A stretch of 64,000 nt of DNA, from contig NZ_SKBP01000008.1 of the NCBI RefSeq assembly GCF_004634195.1, positions 62,001 to 126,000 on the forward strand. Direction: 5' to 3'. Below the pieces are notes generated by a model that was given only the letters and a program-made list of their open reading frames with translations, was not told the origin of the DNA and searched no databases. Below are positions 29,124 to 38,641 of the stretch, piece after piece. Origin of the DNA: Flavobacterium salilacus subsp. salilacus (GTDB taxonomy: Bacteria; Bacteroidota; Bacteroidia; Flavobacteriales; Flavobacteriaceae). The translations under genes and the position numbers were made by a program. How positions within the stretch are numbered: position 1 is the stretch's first letter; each line of letters opens with the position of its first letter.

Positions 29124-30566
29124 TTATAGTTTAAAGTTTCTGGAAACAGGTATTTGTTCCTTATTGGTTAGAATAATACCCTTTGAACTACTGGTTTCTA
29201 TATAATTTGTATTCACAATATATGATCTGTGGCATTTTACAAAATTAGGCGGAAGCTCTTCGACTATTTCCGAAATTTTACCTCTTATAAATTGTTTTTT
29301 ACCCTCAAACGGTATAAAATTGAGGTAATGGTCTTCCGATTTAATGTACATGAGGTTACCCAAATGTATTTTTACTTTATTCTTTAAAACAATATGTTCT
29401 TCTATAACAAGTTGTTTTACTTTTTCCAGTTGTTCAATGGTCTTTATATGTTCTGCCTCCATTCCTTCCTTCTCCATTTCTAATTTTTTGCGTTTATAAT
29501 CTACTTTTTTCCATCTGATGAATGAGTATAGCGCCAGAAGAAATACAAAAAATAAAGCGATACTGTATATGAGTTTATGCCTATTGAAACTATCCACTAT
29601 TTTTTGCAGCGTGGATATTTTCTTTTCTTTCTTTTCTACATCATACTTTACATAGCTCTCATACATTTTTACATTTTGCTCTCTGTCGTTTATACGTTCA
29701 TCAATTTGTTTATACAGTTTTTCATACTTTCTCCGCCCTGCATCATTATTAAGCGAATCGTAGCTTGCTGCCAGTTGTTCGTATAATTTTCTGGAAGCTT
29801 TATCCTTGTAATAAGGCACTTCATCATTAGCTTTTATAAAATAGGGTATTGCTTTGCGGTAATTACCTTCAAAAAAATACGAATTTGCATAGTTGTGGTA
29901 GTACCCGTATTTCTCGTAGGCATCGTTTATCGTATAGATATAAATTTTTGATTTATCGAGATAATAACGTGCAGAATCATGCTCCTGCATAGTGTTTTTT
30001 AATGACCCGATGTTGGAATATAATTTTGCTTTTATTAAATCATTATCCGTTTTACCGGCATACTGCAATGCTTCTCTGAATAATAAATAAGCACTATTCA
30101 GAAATTTACCATCACCTGTTTCATCATATTTAAAATAGTCGTTCTTAGCTAATTCAGCAATGGCATAGGCTTTATGCAATGGCGAGTTAATACTGTCGGC
30201 ATACTGCTGATATTCCTCAAAAAGGCTATTTCCATAATAATCATAATGCTCTTGAGAAGCTATTGTTTTATGCGCCTCAAGCGCGATTTGTTTTGCCAAA
30301 TGGACTTCGCCCAGCTTTTCAAACGCTTTTTTTGAGGTTATAAAGTAGTTAAACGCGACTTCTTCCTGGTTTAGGTATGCATGGCATTTACCCAGTATAT
30401 AATAATTTTTTGCTGCTTCATGAGGTGAAACAGAAGTAACCCGGGCAAGACTATCAATTGCCTTGCCGGGATTATCAACTATAGCTTTAGTAATAAAACT
30501 GTCTATTTGCTGCCCATAGCTAATGGTGCAGAGAAAGAATACTACTATTACTTGTTTTTTAAACAC
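29124..30566 (-). CDS. TPR-transmembrane-LytTR regulator
   Basis: The 480-residue protein has a signal peptide (1-18), a helical tetratricopeptide-like sensor outside the membrane (about 45-290), one membrane helix at about 332-350, a cytoplasmic coiled coil (355-390) and a C-terminal LytTR DNA-binding domain (about 390-480: GNLMYIKSEDHYLNF, RGKISEIVEELP, FVKCHRSYIVNTNYIE). It is a one-component membrane regulator. The start is GTG, directly after the TAA of the upstream gene. It is the last gene of an AT-rich cluster whose upstream region carries LytTR-like direct repeats at 32631-32660, so it may regulate its own operon. Confidence 0.88.
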   Translation of the reverse strand: MFKKQVIVVFFLCTISYGQQIDSFITKAIVDNPGKAIDSLARVTSVSPHEAAKNYYILGKCHAYLNQEEVAFNYFITSKKAFEKLGEVHLAKQIALEAHKTIASQEHYDYYGNSLFEEYQQYADSINSPLHKAYAIAELAKNDYFKYDETGDGKFLNSAYLLFREALQYAGKTDNDLIKAKLYSNIGSLKNTMQEHDSARYYLDKSKIYIYTINDAYEKYGYYHNYANSYFFEGNYRKAIPYFIKANDEVPYYKDKASRKLYEQLAASYDSLNNDAGRRKYEKLYKQIDERINDREQNVKMYESYVKYDVEKKEKKISTLQKIVDSFNRHKLIYSIALFFVFLLALYSFIRWKKVDYKRKKLEMEKEGMEAEHIKTIEQLEKVKQLVIEEHIVLKNKVKIHLGNLMYIKSEDHYLNFIPFEGKKQFIRGKISEIVEELPPNFVKCHRSYIVNTNYIETSSSKGIILTNKEQIPVSRNFKL

Positions 30567-31211
30567 TTATTGCTTTAGTTTTAGAGTTAATACACCGCCG
30601 TCTTTGGTATAGCGGGGCATTTCATAAAGATAACCATTTGATGAAGCTTTACTTTCTACCTTTTTCTTCTTTGATTTCGATTTGTTTATTAACTCATCAA
30701 CAATACAACTTGAATTTACTTGACGATTTGAATTCTCATTATTCCAGATGGAGTTAAAATTATTAAATTCTTCTGTAGTAACATCCGGTTTATATTTGAA
30801 TGTATCTAAATATCTTATAAAATAATCTTCCATTTCTGTAAACCTGTTTACATCTTCTTCATTTAATATCATTATTCTTATTTTATCATTATCATTCCAA
30901 TTCAAAAAATTTAGATGGTTAAGTGTCTCTTTTATCGAAATTTGAGGAGAATTACCATTAACAGGGGTATCATCACATATTCGAGAATCCCCAGTATGAT
31001 AATAACTAAAAGCAAGCCCCCTAAAACCGCTAATTTCTACAACATAACTATTGCCCGTATATGTAAATTGGGAATCGGAAACTCTTAATTTTAAGTCAAC
31101 CTCGATATGCTTTTTATTCTGACTTAATATTAAATCTCCATCAGCAGCAGGAATTATTACTTCAGCCTTTTCTTTTGTCTTGACATTTTTTGTTTCTTTA
31201 TCTGTTTTCAT
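30567..31211 (-). CDS. Hypothetical protein of the LytTR cluster
   Basis: The 214-residue protein has no signal peptide or membrane helix and is highly charged at both ends (KTDKETKNVKTKEKAE; KSKSKKKKVESK). The middle suggests a beta-sandwich (VDLKLRVSDSQFTYTGNSYVVEI) and then helices. I do not recognise the family. Its stop codon abuts the GTG of the LytTR gene, so the two are translationally coupled. It is AT-rich: 30721-30780 contains 16 G+C in 60 bases. Confidence 0.7.
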   Translation of the reverse strand: MKTDKETKNVKTKEKAEVIIPAADGDLILSQNKKHIEVDLKLRVSDSQFTYTGNSYVVEISGFRGLAFSYYHTGDSRICDDTPVNGNSPQISIKETLNHLNFLNWNDNDKIRIMILNEEDVNRFTEMEDYFIRYLDTFKYKPDVTTEEFNNFNSIWNNENSNRQVNSSCIVDELINKSKSKKKKVESKASSNGYLYEMPRYTKDGGVLTLKLKQ

Positions 31212-31277: not shown

Positions 31278-32048
31278 TTAATTACTCAAGAATTGAAACC
31301 CCACCATTATTTTATCATTAACCAGTTGGTTGTAATTCGAAAATGCTTTTGTTATAACTGTAAATCGGAGTGTACTACTGATGGTAACACCAAACATAGC
31401 CCTGCCTAATAGAATAGGTTTCTTAAAACCGGAATCAATCCCAAAACGGTCTTTAAAATCATCCGATACTATCATCAAACCGTATTCAGCATTAACAAAA
31501 AAGTTAAATTTTTTGTTATCCGAAGCCTTACTGCCGTAAAAGGAAGCATACAGCATACCCCTCGCATCTGAAGCATTAACATTACTACCTACGCCATCAA
31601 TATCAGCAGATATTTTGGCATTGAATGCAGGAAACATGAACCATGTATCTCTCTTACGAGCATATACCGGAAGTTGCCCCATCAAATAAAAATTGCCTCC
31701 ACCGTTTGCAACCCGTAACAACTCCTGTTTATTAGTATCTGTTTCCTGTTGATCGCTCGTTGTTTCTTCATTATCTGAAGTTGCGGTCACCACAGACCCA
31801 AATGACAAACGTACACGTCCCATATAATCACTAATCAATTCTGATTGTACAATGGTGCTTTTATCTGTATAAAGTAAACTGATACTGTTGGCAAAACTTG
31901 TTTCATCATCTTCGCCTATGATATTAGCTTTGTTATCGCCGCTTACAAAGCCTGATATGTCGGATTCATAATTTTCTTTTATACTCGGTATTTGTGCATA
32001 CATAATACCGATACAAAACAACATAAAAAGGGTAATTTTTGTTCTCAT
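31278..32048 (-). CDS. Exported beta-rich protein, possibly outer-membrane
   Basis: From the ATG at 32048 the product has 256 residues with a signal peptide of about 18 (MRTKITLFMLFCIGIMYAQ). Alternating strands with glycine and aromatic residues (GGGNFYLMGQLPVYAR, FNFFVNAEYGLMIVSD, MFGVTISSTLRFTVITKAF) and a final IMVGFQFLSN suggest a small outer-membrane barrel. A longer frame begins at 32105 but would overlap the upstream gene and bury the signal peptide. I do not recognise the family. It is the second gene of the LytTR cluster. Confidence 0.72.
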   Translation of the reverse strand: MRTKITLFMLFCIGIMYAQIPSIKENYESDISGFVSGDNKANIIGEDDETSFANSISLLYTDKSTIVQSELISDYMGRVRLSFGSVVTATSDNEETTSDQQETDTNKQELLRVANGGGNFYLMGQLPVYARKRDTWFMFPAFNAKISADIDGVGSNVNASDARGMLYASFYGSKASDNKKFNFFVNAEYGLMIVSDDFKDRFGIDSGFKKPILLGRAMFGVTISSTLRFTVITKAFSNYNQLVNDKIMVGFQFLSN

Positions 32049-32089
32049 AATTTTTAGGTTTATAGCCCGGCATAGCCGGGCATTATTTT

Positions 32090-32512
32090 TTAGTTTACCG
32101 GACACAGTTTACCATAACCCCACTTAAGGAAAAACCTCAAGATTGCTTTTGCTACTTTTTCAAGCACAATACCTCCCGGTAGAAAACGACTTAAAAATTC
32201 TATAATTTTTTCTAAGATTTCTTCAGCAGAAGAAGCTGCGTTTAATACCTTACATAAAAAAGCAAGCACCCTGCGCCAAATATTACCCCCAGCCAAAGAA
32301 GCTGAAAAATTATTGGCTCTGTCTGCTATCATGGTAGCCGATTTTTTATAATACAGCGGAGATACCGCATCAGCAGCCATAAGATAGTTATCAGCAAGAA
32401 GTTTCTCTATTTCATCTTCTTTTAAAACCTCTTCCTTTTCGTATGTTTCTAAAATGTTTTTTTTAAAGGCATTGTAATCAATTTCCTCTAAATTTAAATT
32501 CTGTAAGTACAT
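32090..32512 (-). CDS. Small protein with cationic hydrophobic C-terminus
   Basis: The 140-residue protein has an acidic helical N-terminal half (1-60, many E and K) and, after ASLAGG at residues 71-76, a 64-residue tail rich in hydrophobic and basic residues with about ten K/R against five E, and two cysteines (87 and 137). The double glycine before a cationic amphipathic segment resembles the leader/core junction of exported peptides, although 76 residues would be a long leader. I do not recognise a family. It is the first gene of the cluster, directly below the LytTR-like repeats. Confidence 0.7.
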   Translation of the reverse strand: MYLQNLNLEEIDYNAFKKNILETYEKEEVLKEDEIEKLLADNYLMAADAVSPLYYKKSATMIADRANNFSASLAGGNIWRRVLAFLCKVLNAASSAEEILEKIIEFLSRFLPGGIVLEKVAKAILRFFLKWGYGKLCPVN

Positions 32513-32591: not shown

Positions 32592-32599
32592 CAAAGTTG
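32592..32599 (-). promoter_or_regulatory. Probable -7 box of the LytTR cluster
   Basis: Read leftwards, CAACTTTG matches TAnnTTTG in seven of eight positions. It lies between the LytTR-like repeats (32631-32660) and the first gene (start 32512). Confidence 0.35.
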
Positions 32600-32630
32600 C
32601 TGTATATCAAACCCATAAAAAAATAAATGT

Positions 32631-32660
32631 CGTGAATTGCATGAAAAATACCGTGAATTG
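32631..32660 (-). promoter_or_regulatory. LytTR-like operator: two 9-base direct repeats
   Basis: CGTGAATTG at 32631-32639 and again at 32652-32660 are identical, separated by exactly 12 bases. Two 9-base direct repeats 12-13 bases apart is the known layout of LytTR sites (AgrA, ComE). On the leftward strand the unit reads CAATTCACG, resembling the AgrA core ACAGTTNAG. A LytTR protein is the last gene of the cluster below. Confidence 0.55.
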
Positions 32661-32765: not shown

Positions 32766-33995
32766 ATGTTTTTTCTGTATAATTTACTTATTCACATAGT
32801 AGCTCCTATCCTAAAGATAACCGCGCTTTTCAACCCGAAAATGAGGCTGTTTGTTTCGGGCAGGAAAACCGTTTTCAGTACGCTTGCCGAAAAAATTCAA
32901 CCTGCTGATAAAGTAATATGGTTTCACGCGGCATCACTGGGCGAATATGAGCAGGGATTGCCCATAATGGAGAAAATAAAAGAAAAGTACCCCCACCATA
33001 AAATACTGGTTACGTTCTTTTCCCCATCAGGGTATGAGGTGCGAAAAAACACCAAAGATGCCGATGCAGTAGTGTATTTACCGCTCGACACCAAAGCCAA
33101 CGCCAAAAAGTTTATGGATTTGGCACACCCCGAACTGGTTTTCTTTATCAAGTATGAATTTTGGGCAAATTATCTTAATGAAATAAAAAAGAGGAACATT
33201 GAAGCCTACCTTATATCAGGACTTTTCAGGGAAAACCAACTATTTTTTAAGTGGTACGGCGGGTTTTACCGCAATGCCCTAAAAGCGTTCAACCACCTGT
33301 TTGTGCAGTATGAAAGCTCTAAAAAACTATTGCAGGGCATTGGTTTCAGTAATGTAACCGTGAGTGGCGATACCCGTTACGACCGCGTGAGCCGGATATT
33401 GGAAAGGGATAATACCCTGCCGTTTATTGAAGAGTTTATAAACGGAAAAACCACCATAGTGTTTGGCAGTTCATGGCAAAAAGACGAAGCGATGTTTACT
33501 GATTTTATTAATAAGTCGGGAGAGGTAAAATTCATTATCGCCCCGCATACCATTGGCGAAAGCCATATTAATGATTTGCAAAATGCCATTACCAAAAAAA
33601 CGGTTCTGTTTACCGAAATGGAAGGTAAAAACCTTGCCGACTATGATGTATTTATTGTAAACACCATAGGTATATTGGGCAAAATATACAGCTATGCCGA
33701 TGCCGCCTACGTGGGTGGCGGTTTTGGCACGGCAGGGCTGCACAACATACTCGAACCTGCTGCTTTTGGCATACCCATAGTTATAGGGCCTAACCACCAA
33801 AGGTTTCCCGAAGCGGTGGCATTGGTGCAAATGGGTGGCTGTATTGTAGTAAACAACAAGCCGGAAATGGAAGAAACCCTGAGCCTTTTAGCCTATGATG
33901 AAGTGTACCGTACTGAGAAAGGGCACATAGCCGGAACATTCGTTAGCATGAACCGAGGGGCGGTTAACACCATAATGAACAAAATAGAAAGCTAA
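32766..33995 (+). CDS. kdtA: Kdo transferase (lipid A Kdo addition)
   Basis: KdtA/WaaA transfers Kdo from CMP-Kdo to the lipid A precursor at the inner membrane. The 409-residue product has an N-terminal hydrophobic anchor, WFHAASLGEYEQGLPI with the catalytic glutamate, ILVTFFSPSGYE, FVQYESSKKLL, and the C-terminal donor site GGGFGTAGLHNILEPAAFG. It is a GT30 glycosyltransferase. The acetyltransferase gene overlaps its stop by one base (TAATG). Confidence 0.94.
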   Translation: MFFLYNLLIHIVAPILKITALFNPKMRLFVSGRKTVFSTLAEKIQPADKVIWFHAASLGEYEQGLPIMEKIKEKYPHHKILVTFFSPSGYEVRKNTKDADAVVYLPLDTKANAKKFMDLAHPELVFFIKYEFWANYLNEIKKRNIEAYLISGLFRENQLFFKWYGGFYRNALKAFNHLFVQYESSKKLLQGIGFSNVTVSGDTRYDRVSRILERDNTLPFIEEFINGKTTIVFGSSWQKDEAMFTDFINKSGEVKFIIAPHTIGESHINDLQNAITKKTVLFTEMEGKNLADYDVFIVNTIGILGKIYSYADAAYVGGGFGTAGLHNILEPAAFGIPIVIGPNHQRFPEAVALVQMGGCIVVNNKPEMEETLSLLAYDEVYRTEKGHIAGTFVSMNRGAVNTIMNKIES

Positions 33996-35826: not shown

Positions 35827-36837
35827 CTATAGTGCCGAAATCCTTACTCGGTTGACTTTTACCTTCTCGACTGCTTCACAATTCATAACTTTTTCATCGA
35901 AAATCACAATATTATTTCCTATAGTATGAAGTGAACTTCTAAATTTTATACCACTAGCCCCTGTATATATTTTTATAAACTCACAAATAAATTGTGTTGG
36001 TATATAATCTAATTCAGTATCATACCTTCTCATAGGTCTTGACAAATCTGTACTAATTTTCTGTTTTAGCAATGTCGCTTTTATCCTTTCAGTCACTCGA
36101 GAAGGATGAAAAATAGTAGAATTTTCTGTAAAGTCAGCAATAATAAGTTTTTCCTTATTAGTTGTAAAAATACCAATTGACACTTCATCTAAATATGAAG
36201 CCCTTATTTCATATAGAACTGTTTCTTTTGTGTCACTTAAATATAAAAAAGGTATTCCTAAAGGATTTGCTCTTCCTGCTGACGATATGTGCTTAGGAGG
36301 GCAAAACATATCTTTTACTTCAAATGGATTTTGAGAACTTGAATGATGCAATCTAGCTCTATATAACTTAGTATCCTTATTTATAATTATTTGACTATTG
36401 AAAAAACCGTCCCACCCTAATTCATCAGTTATATAATTAATATCTGTAAAATATCTCCTCTCCCATTTTAGCTGTTCTTTAAGACTATCCCAATAAGATA
36501 TATTTTCTATAATATCTTCCCTAAAATCCACTAATTCATCCGCATTGCTAATTTCTACATCAATATTATCTATTAAATAATTCAATACTTTATCGGCAGA
36601 CTCGAGAGAAGAGAAAAGACCCCAATTTCCTTGAAGTGTTGACTTTAAAGAGTTTCCATTCTCTTTAATCTGAAAATTTTCAAATAATTCTCGGAAAAAT
36701 TCAAAAAGTTCTGATATAGGGATAACTTCATTTGATGTAGAACCACAGAAATCACATTTATCTGTGATTGCTTGGGAAATTATAAACCCTACGAGTTCTC
36801 TATCAGAAAAACAATTCTTGCAAACATTAAGGGGCAT
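35827..36837 (-). CDS. HEPN/RES protein (toxin-like ADP-ribosyl/NADase fold)
   Basis: The 336-residue protein has a Cys4 zinc-ribbon-like start (CKNC at 6-9, KCDFC at 28-31), a helical HEPN-like segment (about 40-130) and a C-terminal RES domain. RES hallmarks are LYRAR with Arg160, GRANPLGIPFLYLS at 188-201, Glu210 in VLYEIR and serines 301-302 in GIKFRSSL. RES toxins of known systems degrade NAD+. No Xre antitoxin is next to it; instead it is the last of three packed genes, 4 bases after the beta-like gene. The region is strikingly AT-rich, suggesting transfer. Confidence 0.82.
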   Translation of the reverse strand: MPLNVCKNCFSDRELVGFIISQAITDKCDFCGSTSNEVIPISELFEFFRELFENFQIKENGNSLKSTLQGNWGLFSSLESADKVLNYLIDNIDVEISNADELVDFREDIIENISYWDSLKEQLKWERRYFTDINYITDELGWDGFFNSQIIINKDTKLYRARLHHSSSQNPFEVKDMFCPPKHISSAGRANPLGIPFLYLSDTKETVLYEIRASYLDEVSIGIFTTNKEKLIIADFTENSTIFHPSRVTERIKATLLKQKISTDLSRPMRRYDTELDYIPTQFICEFIKIYTGASGIKFRSSLHTIGNNIVIFDEKVMNCEAVEKVKVNRVRISAL

Positions 36838-36841
36838 ACTC

Positions 36842-37774
36842 CTATAATAAATAGTTATTTACAACGTTCAAATGATTCTTTATAGATATTTTCTTTACAG
36901 TACCCAAACCTGGATATCTCCCTTCATCTAAATAATTTCTCAATTCTGTAACCGCAGTATTAGATATACCCTCAATATCACAAAAGGCTATTGCTTTTTC
37001 TGCTGCTTCTCTAAACTTTCCTTGTACGTTTGCTATCGAATCATTTGTATCCGATGTAAAATGTCGAATCCAAATTTGATTATCTTTATTTTCATTTAGA
37101 TAAGTAAAATGTATTACAACCGCTCTTGGAGTACTACCTCCATCTATATACTCGCTAGGTAATGTTGTAAAGTCAGAGAAACCTTGATAACCCTCCTCTT
37201 TATAATAAAGATGCTCTTCAGTAAACTTATGGGCTGGAATATCTAAAAAATCAGAATTTTTTACTTGTTTTTCAAATACATCATCCAAACGGATGTAATT
37301 CTTATTTAGTGTTCTTAAATATCTATCCAGAGACCTAAATCTAGAAGGGTCGAACAACATTATATGAGTAACAAATTCTTCACCACATAAATCTCTAAAC
37401 CTATCATCTTCAACAAAATTATCATAACATATAACCATACAGTTATTTAAATTATACTCTTCTACCATATCCTTTATATATTGTGAATTCTGTTTGTAAT
37501 GAAAGGCAGGGAGAAATCTAGACTCTTCTAAACCATCTAGATAATCTAAATAATGTTCTGTGTCTCCTAAATGTTCTCCCACTATTGGATTTATAATTAA
37601 AAAAGTATCTAATCCTTTCTCTACAAATATCTTATTTGCAATATCAAGATTGTTAAATGTCTCTTTAACTGGTTCTATAACTGGAGTTATATACCCCTGC
37701 AGAATATTTTCTATAGCTAATTCTCTAAGTGAAATTAATTCGAATTGGCGGGCTCTTAAATAAGGATAATACAT
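36842..37774 (-). CDS. Beta-family / sce7725-like protein
   Basis: The 310-residue protein opens YYPYLRARQFELISLRE, the start typical of the sce7725 and phage T4 beta protein-like families. The rest has TIM-barrel-like alternation (YITPVIEPVKE, TFLIINPIVGEHLG, RFLPAFHYK, CMVICYDNF, HIMLFDPSRFR, AVVIHFTYL). No enzymatic motif is certain. In other genomes sce7725 and sce7726 genes are neighbours, as here. Its ATG directly follows the TAA of the sce7726-like gene, and its stop is 4 bases from the RES gene. Confidence 0.75.
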   Translation of the reverse strand: MYYPYLRARQFELISLRELAIENILQGYITPVIEPVKETFNNLDIANKIFVEKGLDTFLIINPIVGEHLGDTEHYLDYLDGLEESRFLPAFHYKQNSQYIKDMVEEYNLNNCMVICYDNFVEDDRFRDLCGEEFVTHIMLFDPSRFRSLDRYLRTLNKNYIRLDDVFEKQVKNSDFLDIPAHKFTEEHLYYKEEGYQGFSDFTTLPSEYIDGGSTPRAVVIHFTYLNENKDNQIWIRHFTSDTNDSIANVQGKFREAAEKAIAFCDIEGISNTAVTELRNYLDEGRYPGLGTVKKISIKNHLNVVNNYLL

Positions 37775-38641
37775 TTAGTAATTAATTTGTTGTTTTAGAT
37801 TGGTAAATAATTCTTGCTTTTGTACTTTATTAAGATTTAATGACAGACATATCTGATTAAATTGCCTTGTTTCTTTACGGGAAAAATTATTTTGTTTTTT
37901 TCTTGATTTCATCAAATCAATAAACAATCTATTCAACTCAAAACCAGGTATTTCAGATATTAATTTTTTACAAATATCAAACTTATTAAAATCATTAACT
38001 TTAGGTAAATAACCATAATAATTTTCTACCAAATTCAAATATTCTGAAGTATGAAGAATCTCCATTATAGCACTATGATTTAAGAAATGATTTTTATAAG
38101 AATTACGAATTAATTCAAACTCTTTTTTGTCCTCATCATAAACTATAATTCCTACTTCATCATCAATGTTCAAATACTTAAACAATTTCAATTTTGGCAC
38201 TATTAAATAGACTTCGTTGAATACTTTTTTATACTCAATCAATTGCTTGCTCAATCTATACTCTTTATCAAGAATTGTTTTAATTTCGAAAACCTTAGAT
38301 GTCCCATTAAACATAACTAAATCTGCAATAGCTTTCCCCAAACGAAATTCATTATAAATTGCAGATTGCTGACAATTACCAACCTCTTTTATTAACCATT
38401 GATTTAAGAATTCATTCTTATAAACATATTCATTTGGATAATGAGTTTCAAGAACTTTATAAGCATATTTTAAGTAATCTAAGTAATTTAGTTTCTTTAT
38501 AGACTCTCTATTATCATATCTTTTAATTTTTAGATTTAAAGAATTAAAATCATTATCAAATAAGCGACTAACTTCACTTCTAGAAAAAAGCATCGAATAA
38601 TCTCTCAATTGATTTAAAGGATATGATTTCTTTATATACAT
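37775..38641 (-). CDS. sce7726-family protein (PD-(D/E)XK nuclease-like)
   Basis: The 288-residue protein has a nuclease-like core: Glu98 (YNEFRLGKAIADLVM), Asp107, Glu119-x-Lys121 (VFEIKT) and Gln133 in the helix SKQLIEYKK. These match the PD-(D/E)XK fold and the sce7726 family as I know it. It leads the three-gene island. The section 37801-37860 has only 14 G+C in 60 bases, against 27 in 40021-40080 of the S46 gene. Confidence 0.75.
   Translation of the reverse strand: MYIKKSYPLNQLRDYSMLFSRSEVSRLFDNDFNSLNLKIKRYDNRESIKKLNYLDYLKYAYKVLETHYPNEYVYKNEFLNQWLIKEVGNCQQSAIYNEFRLGKAIADLVMFNGTSKVFEIKTILDKEYRLSKQLIEYKKVFNEVYLIVPKLKLFKYLNIDDEVGIIVYDEDKKEFELIRNSYKNHFLNHSAIMEILHTSEYLNLVENYYGYLPKVNDFNKFDICKKLISEIPGFELNRLFIDLMKSRKKQNNFSRKETRQFNQICLSLNLNKVQKQELFTNLKQQINY

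Follow-up and report, generated by a model that had tools for sequence, protein, structure and literature searches.

The window examined here is the whole 64,000-nucleotide stretch of the Flavobacterium salilacus subsp. salilacus contig, and it contains a minus-strand cluster of four genes preceded by a pair of short direct repeats (Table 1). The last gene begins with GTG and follows the gene of what is termed here the partner protein with zero gap. As a sequence-only reading of this DNA had proposed, this last gene encodes a LytTR protein, with a Pfam LytTR match (PF04397) at residues 398-478 (57 bits vs a cut-off of 22.6), and the membrane tether attributed to it is upheld by a hydrophobic segment, the single one detected by a hydrophobicity scan in which the N-terminus stayed below threshold. 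The best of the Pfam TPR matches falls just under its cut-off, and neither a receiver domain nor an MHYT domain was found among the Pfam matches of the regulator. In the AlphaFold model (17 sequences, pLDDT 82.9), helices at residues 21-271 are followed by long helices through 388 and by the LytTR part from 391. Foldseek matched the LytTR part to AgrA-DNA structures (4xqj, TMt 0.74, rmsd 1.8 A, 27% identity) and the TPR part best to animal LGN proteins, with RapI (4i1a) and Rap-Phr* (6t46) also among the matches. The TPR part is predicted to be outside the cytoplasm, since the N-terminus was taken by eye for a signal peptide.

Table 1. Features of the operon and of its upstream region (window coordinates).
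Feature	Position	Strand	Remarks
Distal half-site CAATTCACG	32652..32660	-	predicted -73 to -65; 21-bp offset kept in relatives
Proximal half-site CAATTCACG	32631..32639	-	predicted -52 to -44
ACATTT block	32625..32630	-	directly 3' of the proximal half-site; nearly invariant among relatives
-7 box CAACTTTG (consensus TANNTTTG)	32592..32599	-	predicted transcription start ~32587
First operon gene, 140 aa, family unassigned	32090..32512	-	relative in G153
256-aa protein	31278..32048	-	start set at ATG 32048 (MRTKITLFMLF..); signal-peptide-like by eye
214-aa partner protein	30567..31211	-	modelled mostly as beta-strand; C-terminal strand similar in nearest relatives
480-aa regulator	29124..30566	-	short hydrophobic N-terminus, TPR helices ~21-271, hydrophobic segment 330-353, LytTR ~391-478

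The gene of the 140-aa protein is missing from the MedPE-SWcel operon, which is otherwise syntenic with that of the window, and it is present in two of 199 genomes of the genus, including its own; a search for related loci with this protein found nothing. The MedPE-SWcel operon begins with a relative of the 256-aa protein, and the start of this relative agrees with the ATG chosen here. Between the 140-aa and 256-aa genes, at 32065-32081, there is a perfect GC-rich hairpin (GCCCGGCATAGCCGGGC); its T-run belongs to the plus strand and the operon to the minus strand. A role of the operon in defence was also considered and was dropped, as PADLOC gave no match for the three of its four genes that were submitted (the 256-aa gene was not among them). 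Elsewhere in the window, three minus-strand genes at 35827-38641 encode a RES-domain protein, whose match to a HEPN/RES N-terminal model stays below the cut-off, a 310-aa protein to which Pfam assigns no domain, and a 288-aa protein hit by the PADLOC model cll (1.3e-9).

The 9-mer CGTGAATTG occurs exactly twice in the 64-kb window, so that on the minus strand, which is the strand of the cluster, the repeat reads CAATTCACG-N12-CAATTCACG (32631-32660); the exact 9-base direct repeats with a 12-base gap described previously are thus borne out. Excerpts of PMC11347149 define LytTR operators as 9-bp direct repeats 10-13 bp apart, and the exact 9-12-9 arrangement falls within this range. The genome scan for additional 9-12-9 copies that had been suggested was run, and the 9-mer pair at a gap of 11-13 bases has one occurrence in the whole 3.0-Mb genome. 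The looser pattern CAWTTCRCG-N12-CAWTTCRCG, with up to two mismatches, was found in two places (the window site and one place with two mismatches), and the reversed control also gave two. Runs of at least nine identical bases at offset 21 number four in the window (16349, 18906, 32631, and 41288), vs a mean of 0.32 per shuffled window (100 shuffles). For the 253-bp intergenic stretch alone, the shuffled probability was 0.0036 at offset 21 and 0.0106 for offsets 20-22 (5,000 shuffles each). The repeat by itself is therefore weak evidence and mildly unusual, since the window holds three other such runs. On sequence grounds, the case for the element is one of conservation and not of the window repeat alone.

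Within the genus, the regulator was found at E <= 1e-40 in five of the 199 genomes, its own included (at most eight candidates were scored per genome), and all five operons carry the element in the identical orientation. The half-sites of the MedPE-SWcel operon are CATTTCACG and CATTTCGCG; one change relative to the window pair is common to both, and the second has one extra change. The exact string GCATTTCACGACATTT is present once in each of three genus genomes, every time at the regulator operon, in a count that excludes the window and MedPE sites, whose strings differ; the reversed control gave none. As a control, a site matrix was run over about 3.3 kb at each of the genome's six other LytTR genes; the best score was -8.5 vs 69.3 at the window site, which is itself in the matrix.

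Beyond these five sites, 15 loci were fetched by a profile of the regulator, and in 12 of them the element is the clear best score (29.8 to 53.7 bits) of a matrix built from the five genus sites, with the runner-up in each locus at or below 18.4. Ten of the 12 are new to the five-site matrix, one of these (L035) being close to the training locus G170; L031 and L033 are the same contigs as the training loci G085 and G118. The remaining three loci are without the element, one at a contig edge (L038) and two fetched as distant LytTR-domain-only matches (L044 and L045), and they were left out of the site counts. Fifteen sites could be aligned without gaps over 71 columns, of which the last four are an invariant TTTG ending 39 bp past the proximal repeat. 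A sequence-only profile, R1, was then built from these aligned sites. Across the genus it marks eight places in seven of 199 genomes, namely the five operons and three others. One of the three (G118:C27, around position 2001 of locus L112; E 5.8e-10) has the element between kdtA and an aminotransferase gene, ahead of an 88-aa frame; this is the syntenic position of the window operon, which is absent there, and the regulator operon of G118 is elsewhere. This site may be either a second target or a relic. The second (G001, E 4.3e-8) is near a contig end with no regulator downstream, and precedes a frame that looks exported by eye. The third (G119, E 6.3e-4), inside a gene and with no regulator in the fetched stretch, was taken as a chance match.

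In 397 genomes of the family, R1 marks 16 places in 15 genomes, which are the window, two training sites (G390 and G234), and 13 new places. All seven new places with E <= 1.5e-6 are upstream of a TPR-LytTR gene on the same strand, a count to which no reversed control for R1 belongs. Among the six weaker places, one has a LytTR gene, and five (E 1.7e-5 to 9.4e-4) have no regulator within the fetched stretch and were taken as chance matches. Since the one with a LytTR gene, a short one, has an E of 1.6e-4 (G275:C2), E alone cannot divide true from chance matches; the multi-genome R1 searches also ran with stricter filters, by which weak matches are lost. In the reverse direction, 12 strong regulator places (at least 199 bits, with at most four candidates scored per genome) were found in 11 genomes, and 11 of these places have an R1 site. 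The lone one without (G432) has a degenerate upstream site at 10.2 bits, the next score being -16.6. At six weaker regulator places (141-179 bits) there was no R1 match; degenerate candidates are present at three of them, upstream in G353 (11.4) and just after the regulator gene in G430 (5.6) and G499 (5.1), while none was found in G345 and G294 and the contig of G281 ends just past the gene. The layout of G430 and G499 is also that of Halpernia, one of the 12 matrix-scored loci with the element, in which it is just downstream of the regulator gene and ahead of a gene for an exported protein. The element is likewise found at regulator operons in other neighbourhoods (neighbours, by eye: kdtA, murB, and dxs). 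The repeat had also been considered as an operator of kdtA, the divergent gene at 32766, and this reading was rejected in view of the loci with other neighbours than kdtA, in which the element still points toward the LytTR operon.

The two half-sites of a site resemble each other more than they resemble those of other sites. In 27 sites with 25 distinct half-site pairs (a set without G118:C27 and G001), 174 of 225 positions are identical within pairs vs a mean of 142.4 after re-pairing, and none of 20,000 permutations, which are uncorrected for relatedness, reached 174. The four lowest of the 27 sites (L095, L096, L102, and L103) come from loci selected through the regulator, in which each was the top-scoring candidate; R1 does not match them. 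Four different 9-mers are exactly duplicated, CAATTCACG, CATTTCACG, CATTTCGTG (the Lacinutrix form of the half-site), and TTATTCACG (p 0.0075, from permutations that ignore relatedness), and the loci with these four are on separate branches of the regulator tree. In 14 distinct sites, half-site identity peaks only at offset 21, at 7.36 of nine positions; all other offsets from 12 to 33 give at most 3.64. Poorly matched pairs also exist, with four of nine positions in L073 and five of nine in SW22112, L067, L102, and L103. The proximal half together with ACATTT is more conserved than the distal half, and therefore the recognition may not be that of a plain 9-12-9 pair. As judged from the aligned sequences, the conserved element exceeds the two 9-mers and includes a TG before the proximal repeat, the ACATTT after it, and a near-constant spacing to the -7 box. 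The ACATTT block probably belongs to the recognised element or to the promoter.

Bacteroidota promoters are described, in excerpts of PMC6847099 and PMC9723704, as TTTG/TANNTTTG, the -7 box spanning -12 to -5. A near-consensus -7 box had been claimed downstream of the repeat, and CAACTTTG at 32592-32599 agrees with this. The predicted start would give a 75-nt leader and would place the centre of the repeats at about -58.5. The -33 position is TTTT in the window, and TTTG is visible there in some relatives. The TTTG at the end of the alignment occupies identical columns in all 15 aligned sites; among 12 further sites, it does so in five, is one base later in four (L065, L068, L073, and L096), and absent in three (L067, L069, and L095). 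A full TANNTTTG is found in none of the 15 aligned sites (none has TA at -12/-11) vs six of the 12 further ones (L065, L068, L073, L096, L102, and L103), and for this reason a weak -7 box is no general argument for activation. It is the site being upstream of -33 that favours activation. According to excerpts of PMC11347149, a placement upstream of the promoter is that of most LytTR activators, and the predicted centre and the constant distance to TTTG in the 15 aligned sites correspond to it.

Overall, the repeat is very probably the operator of the operon 32512-29124, to which the operon's own membrane-anchored LytTR regulator would bind as an activator. What the analysis shows in silico is a conserved element tied to this lineage of regulators, half-sites that match each other, their distance to the -7 box, and a modelled LytTR fold; that the regulator binds, that it activates instead of repressing, that it controls its own operon, and that its signal is perceived on the outer side of the membrane are inferences. 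A proposed mechanism can be described as follows. The regulator would be a membrane-anchored one-component protein that has its TPR domain outside the cytoplasm, crosses the membrane once, and continues through a helical linker into a LytTR domain on the cytoplasmic side. A pair of LytTR domains may occupy the half-sites, both on one side of the helix and two turns (21 bp) apart. Bound just upstream of the -33/-7 promoter, they could help RNA polymerase to start the operon. The output would be the exported protein, the partner protein, the 140-aa protein, and more regulator, and therefore the loop would feed back on itself. Of the earlier claims, that of a LytTR-type operator for the cluster gains support from the comparative tests (the 15-site alignment, R1 with 7/7, the reverse test with 11/12, and the half-site pairing). 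The claim of a self-regulated operon appears to fit the layout in the window, but not that in Halpernia, G430, and G499, in which the element follows the regulator gene; as far as gene order indicates, self-regulation is not universal among the relatives.

Four alternatives can be weighed against activation by the operon's own regulator. In the first, the operator is the same and the LytTR protein would act as a repressor, released from the DNA once its TPR domain meets a ligand, as CoxC is by CO. CoxC, as described in excerpts of PMC11347149, is a membrane-bound MHYT-LytTR one-component regulator that represses, with three 8-bp repeats overlapping -35; a characterised membrane-bound LytTR regulator is thus a repressor, and the full -7 boxes of the six further sites would need no activator. 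However, the proximal repeat here ends at about -44, upstream of -33, and TA at -12/-11 is missing from all aligned sites, so that repression is considered unlikely. In the second, the element would be bound by another regulator, for example by one of six further LytTR proteins that the genome encodes, and its presence at this operon would reflect co-inheritance. These six genes do exist and the binding of the operon's own regulator is a prediction, yet strong sites and strong relatives of the regulator co-occur in both directions in the 397 family genomes, also in differing neighbourhoods, and this alternative appears very unlikely. A still less probable one is that no protein operator is involved and the conserved block serves as an extended promoter or some other feature of the DNA or RNA, with the repeat incidental. 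ACATTT and the TTTG of the -7 box are indeed among the most invariant parts, but a promoter offers no evident reason for half-sites that match at exactly 21 bp, and an RNA feature would not contain the repeat, since it is upstream of the predicted start. Lastly, a chance repeat, which the three other runs in the window could suggest, has a negligible likelihood and is rejected because the element is kept at the same place in relatives.

The predicted system shares some properties with known ones. Like AgrA-type operators, it has 9-bp direct repeats that lie upstream of the promoter at a distance of about two turns from each other, centred near -60 in AgrA (excerpts of PMC4227749) vs -58.5 here, and the fold modelled for the LytTR part is close to that of AgrA. 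AgrA, ComE, and LytR are response regulators with a receiver domain, whereas the regulator here has none; it also differs from the AgrA type in its predicted membrane anchor, its TPR domain, and the Bacteroidota -33/-7 promoter. CoxC, as far as the excerpts describe it, is similar in that it is a single-component LytTR regulator anchored in the membrane, its gene accompanies those of its targets, and its direct repeats are two turns apart. It differs in its seven-segment MHYT domain; the regulator here has, apart from the N-terminus, a single hydrophobic segment, as well as a TPR domain and two repeats upstream of -33. Excerpts of three other papers (PMC10197871, PMC8895600, and PMC5395568) mention LytTR proteins or Bacteroidetes two-component systems, and this architecture is not part of those excerpts. 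In the open-licence literature, a scope outside which most subscription papers fall, neither a TPR-LytTR regulator of this type nor its operator was seen described.

Rap proteins are cytoplasmic and have peptide ligands. The TPR fold used in sensing is common to Rap/Phr-type sensors and, as the two Rap structures among the Foldseek matches suggest, to the regulator here; unlike theirs, the TPR part here is predicted outside the cytoplasm, and its best matches are the animal LGN proteins. It is conceivable, although quite unlikely, that the extracytoplasmic TPR domain reads the partner protein of its own operon, which would be a Rap/Phr-like sensing turned outward and wired to DNA without a kinase. 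That the partner acts as ligand or co-sensor is speculative. Of 24 loci, 19 were found to have a gene immediately ahead of the regulator, and its product is 84-225 aa long in 18 of them and 567 aa in one (L063). The bodies of these partners diverge, and their C-terminal ends are alike within groups of loci (for example DGGVLTLK, GGVVGV, and GGYPCN); the partner of L066 is without such an end. In the AlphaFold model of the window partner (6 sequences, pLDDT 77.1), the tail is a beta-strand at residues 200-212 after a low-confidence linker, with block means of 87 and 92 from residue 201. No solved fold was found for the window partner at E <= 0.001, and no NCBIfam model was above cut-off for it or for six other partners. 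A double-glycine peptide precursor, which was considered for the tail, is not supported, given the modelled beta-strand and the lack of an NCBIfam match above cut-off.

The genes between the site and the regulator vary, and many have signal-peptide-like starts by eye. They encode, for example, proteins with a T9SS tail in Lacinutrix (L040 and L042), a DUF4403 protein in L023, and subtilases in L063 and L070. In the first genes of the two Lacinutrix loci (L040 4009-5037 and L042 3401-4777), the N-terminus and the T9SS tail are common and the middles differ by eye, as if a passenger had been exchanged. The 567-aa product in L063 (5969-7672), directly before the regulator, is itself a subtilase (Pfam), and its C-terminal part, which ends in GGYPCNQSAFF, resembles by eye the small partners of L067 and L070. 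In G153 (L024 2957-10830), three genes, for a small protein, for a histidine kinase that matches TPR weakly, and for a response regulator of the LuxR type, are followed by those of a 182-aa protein without Pfam match, a patatin, the relative of the 140-aa protein of the window, a 587-aa protein of unassigned family, and a GH25 protein; similar parts are thus present there with a two-component output.

For a class of LytTR regulators that Flavobacteriaceae appear to anchor in the membrane, the analysis provides a precise candidate operator and a predicted promoter. Since most genomes with an R1 site have only one, regulator and target gene appear to be linked, and one reporter would suffice to approach the question of TPR sensing. 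That the switch is constant and the cargo behind it varies suggests how exported proteins may be swapped while their control is kept.
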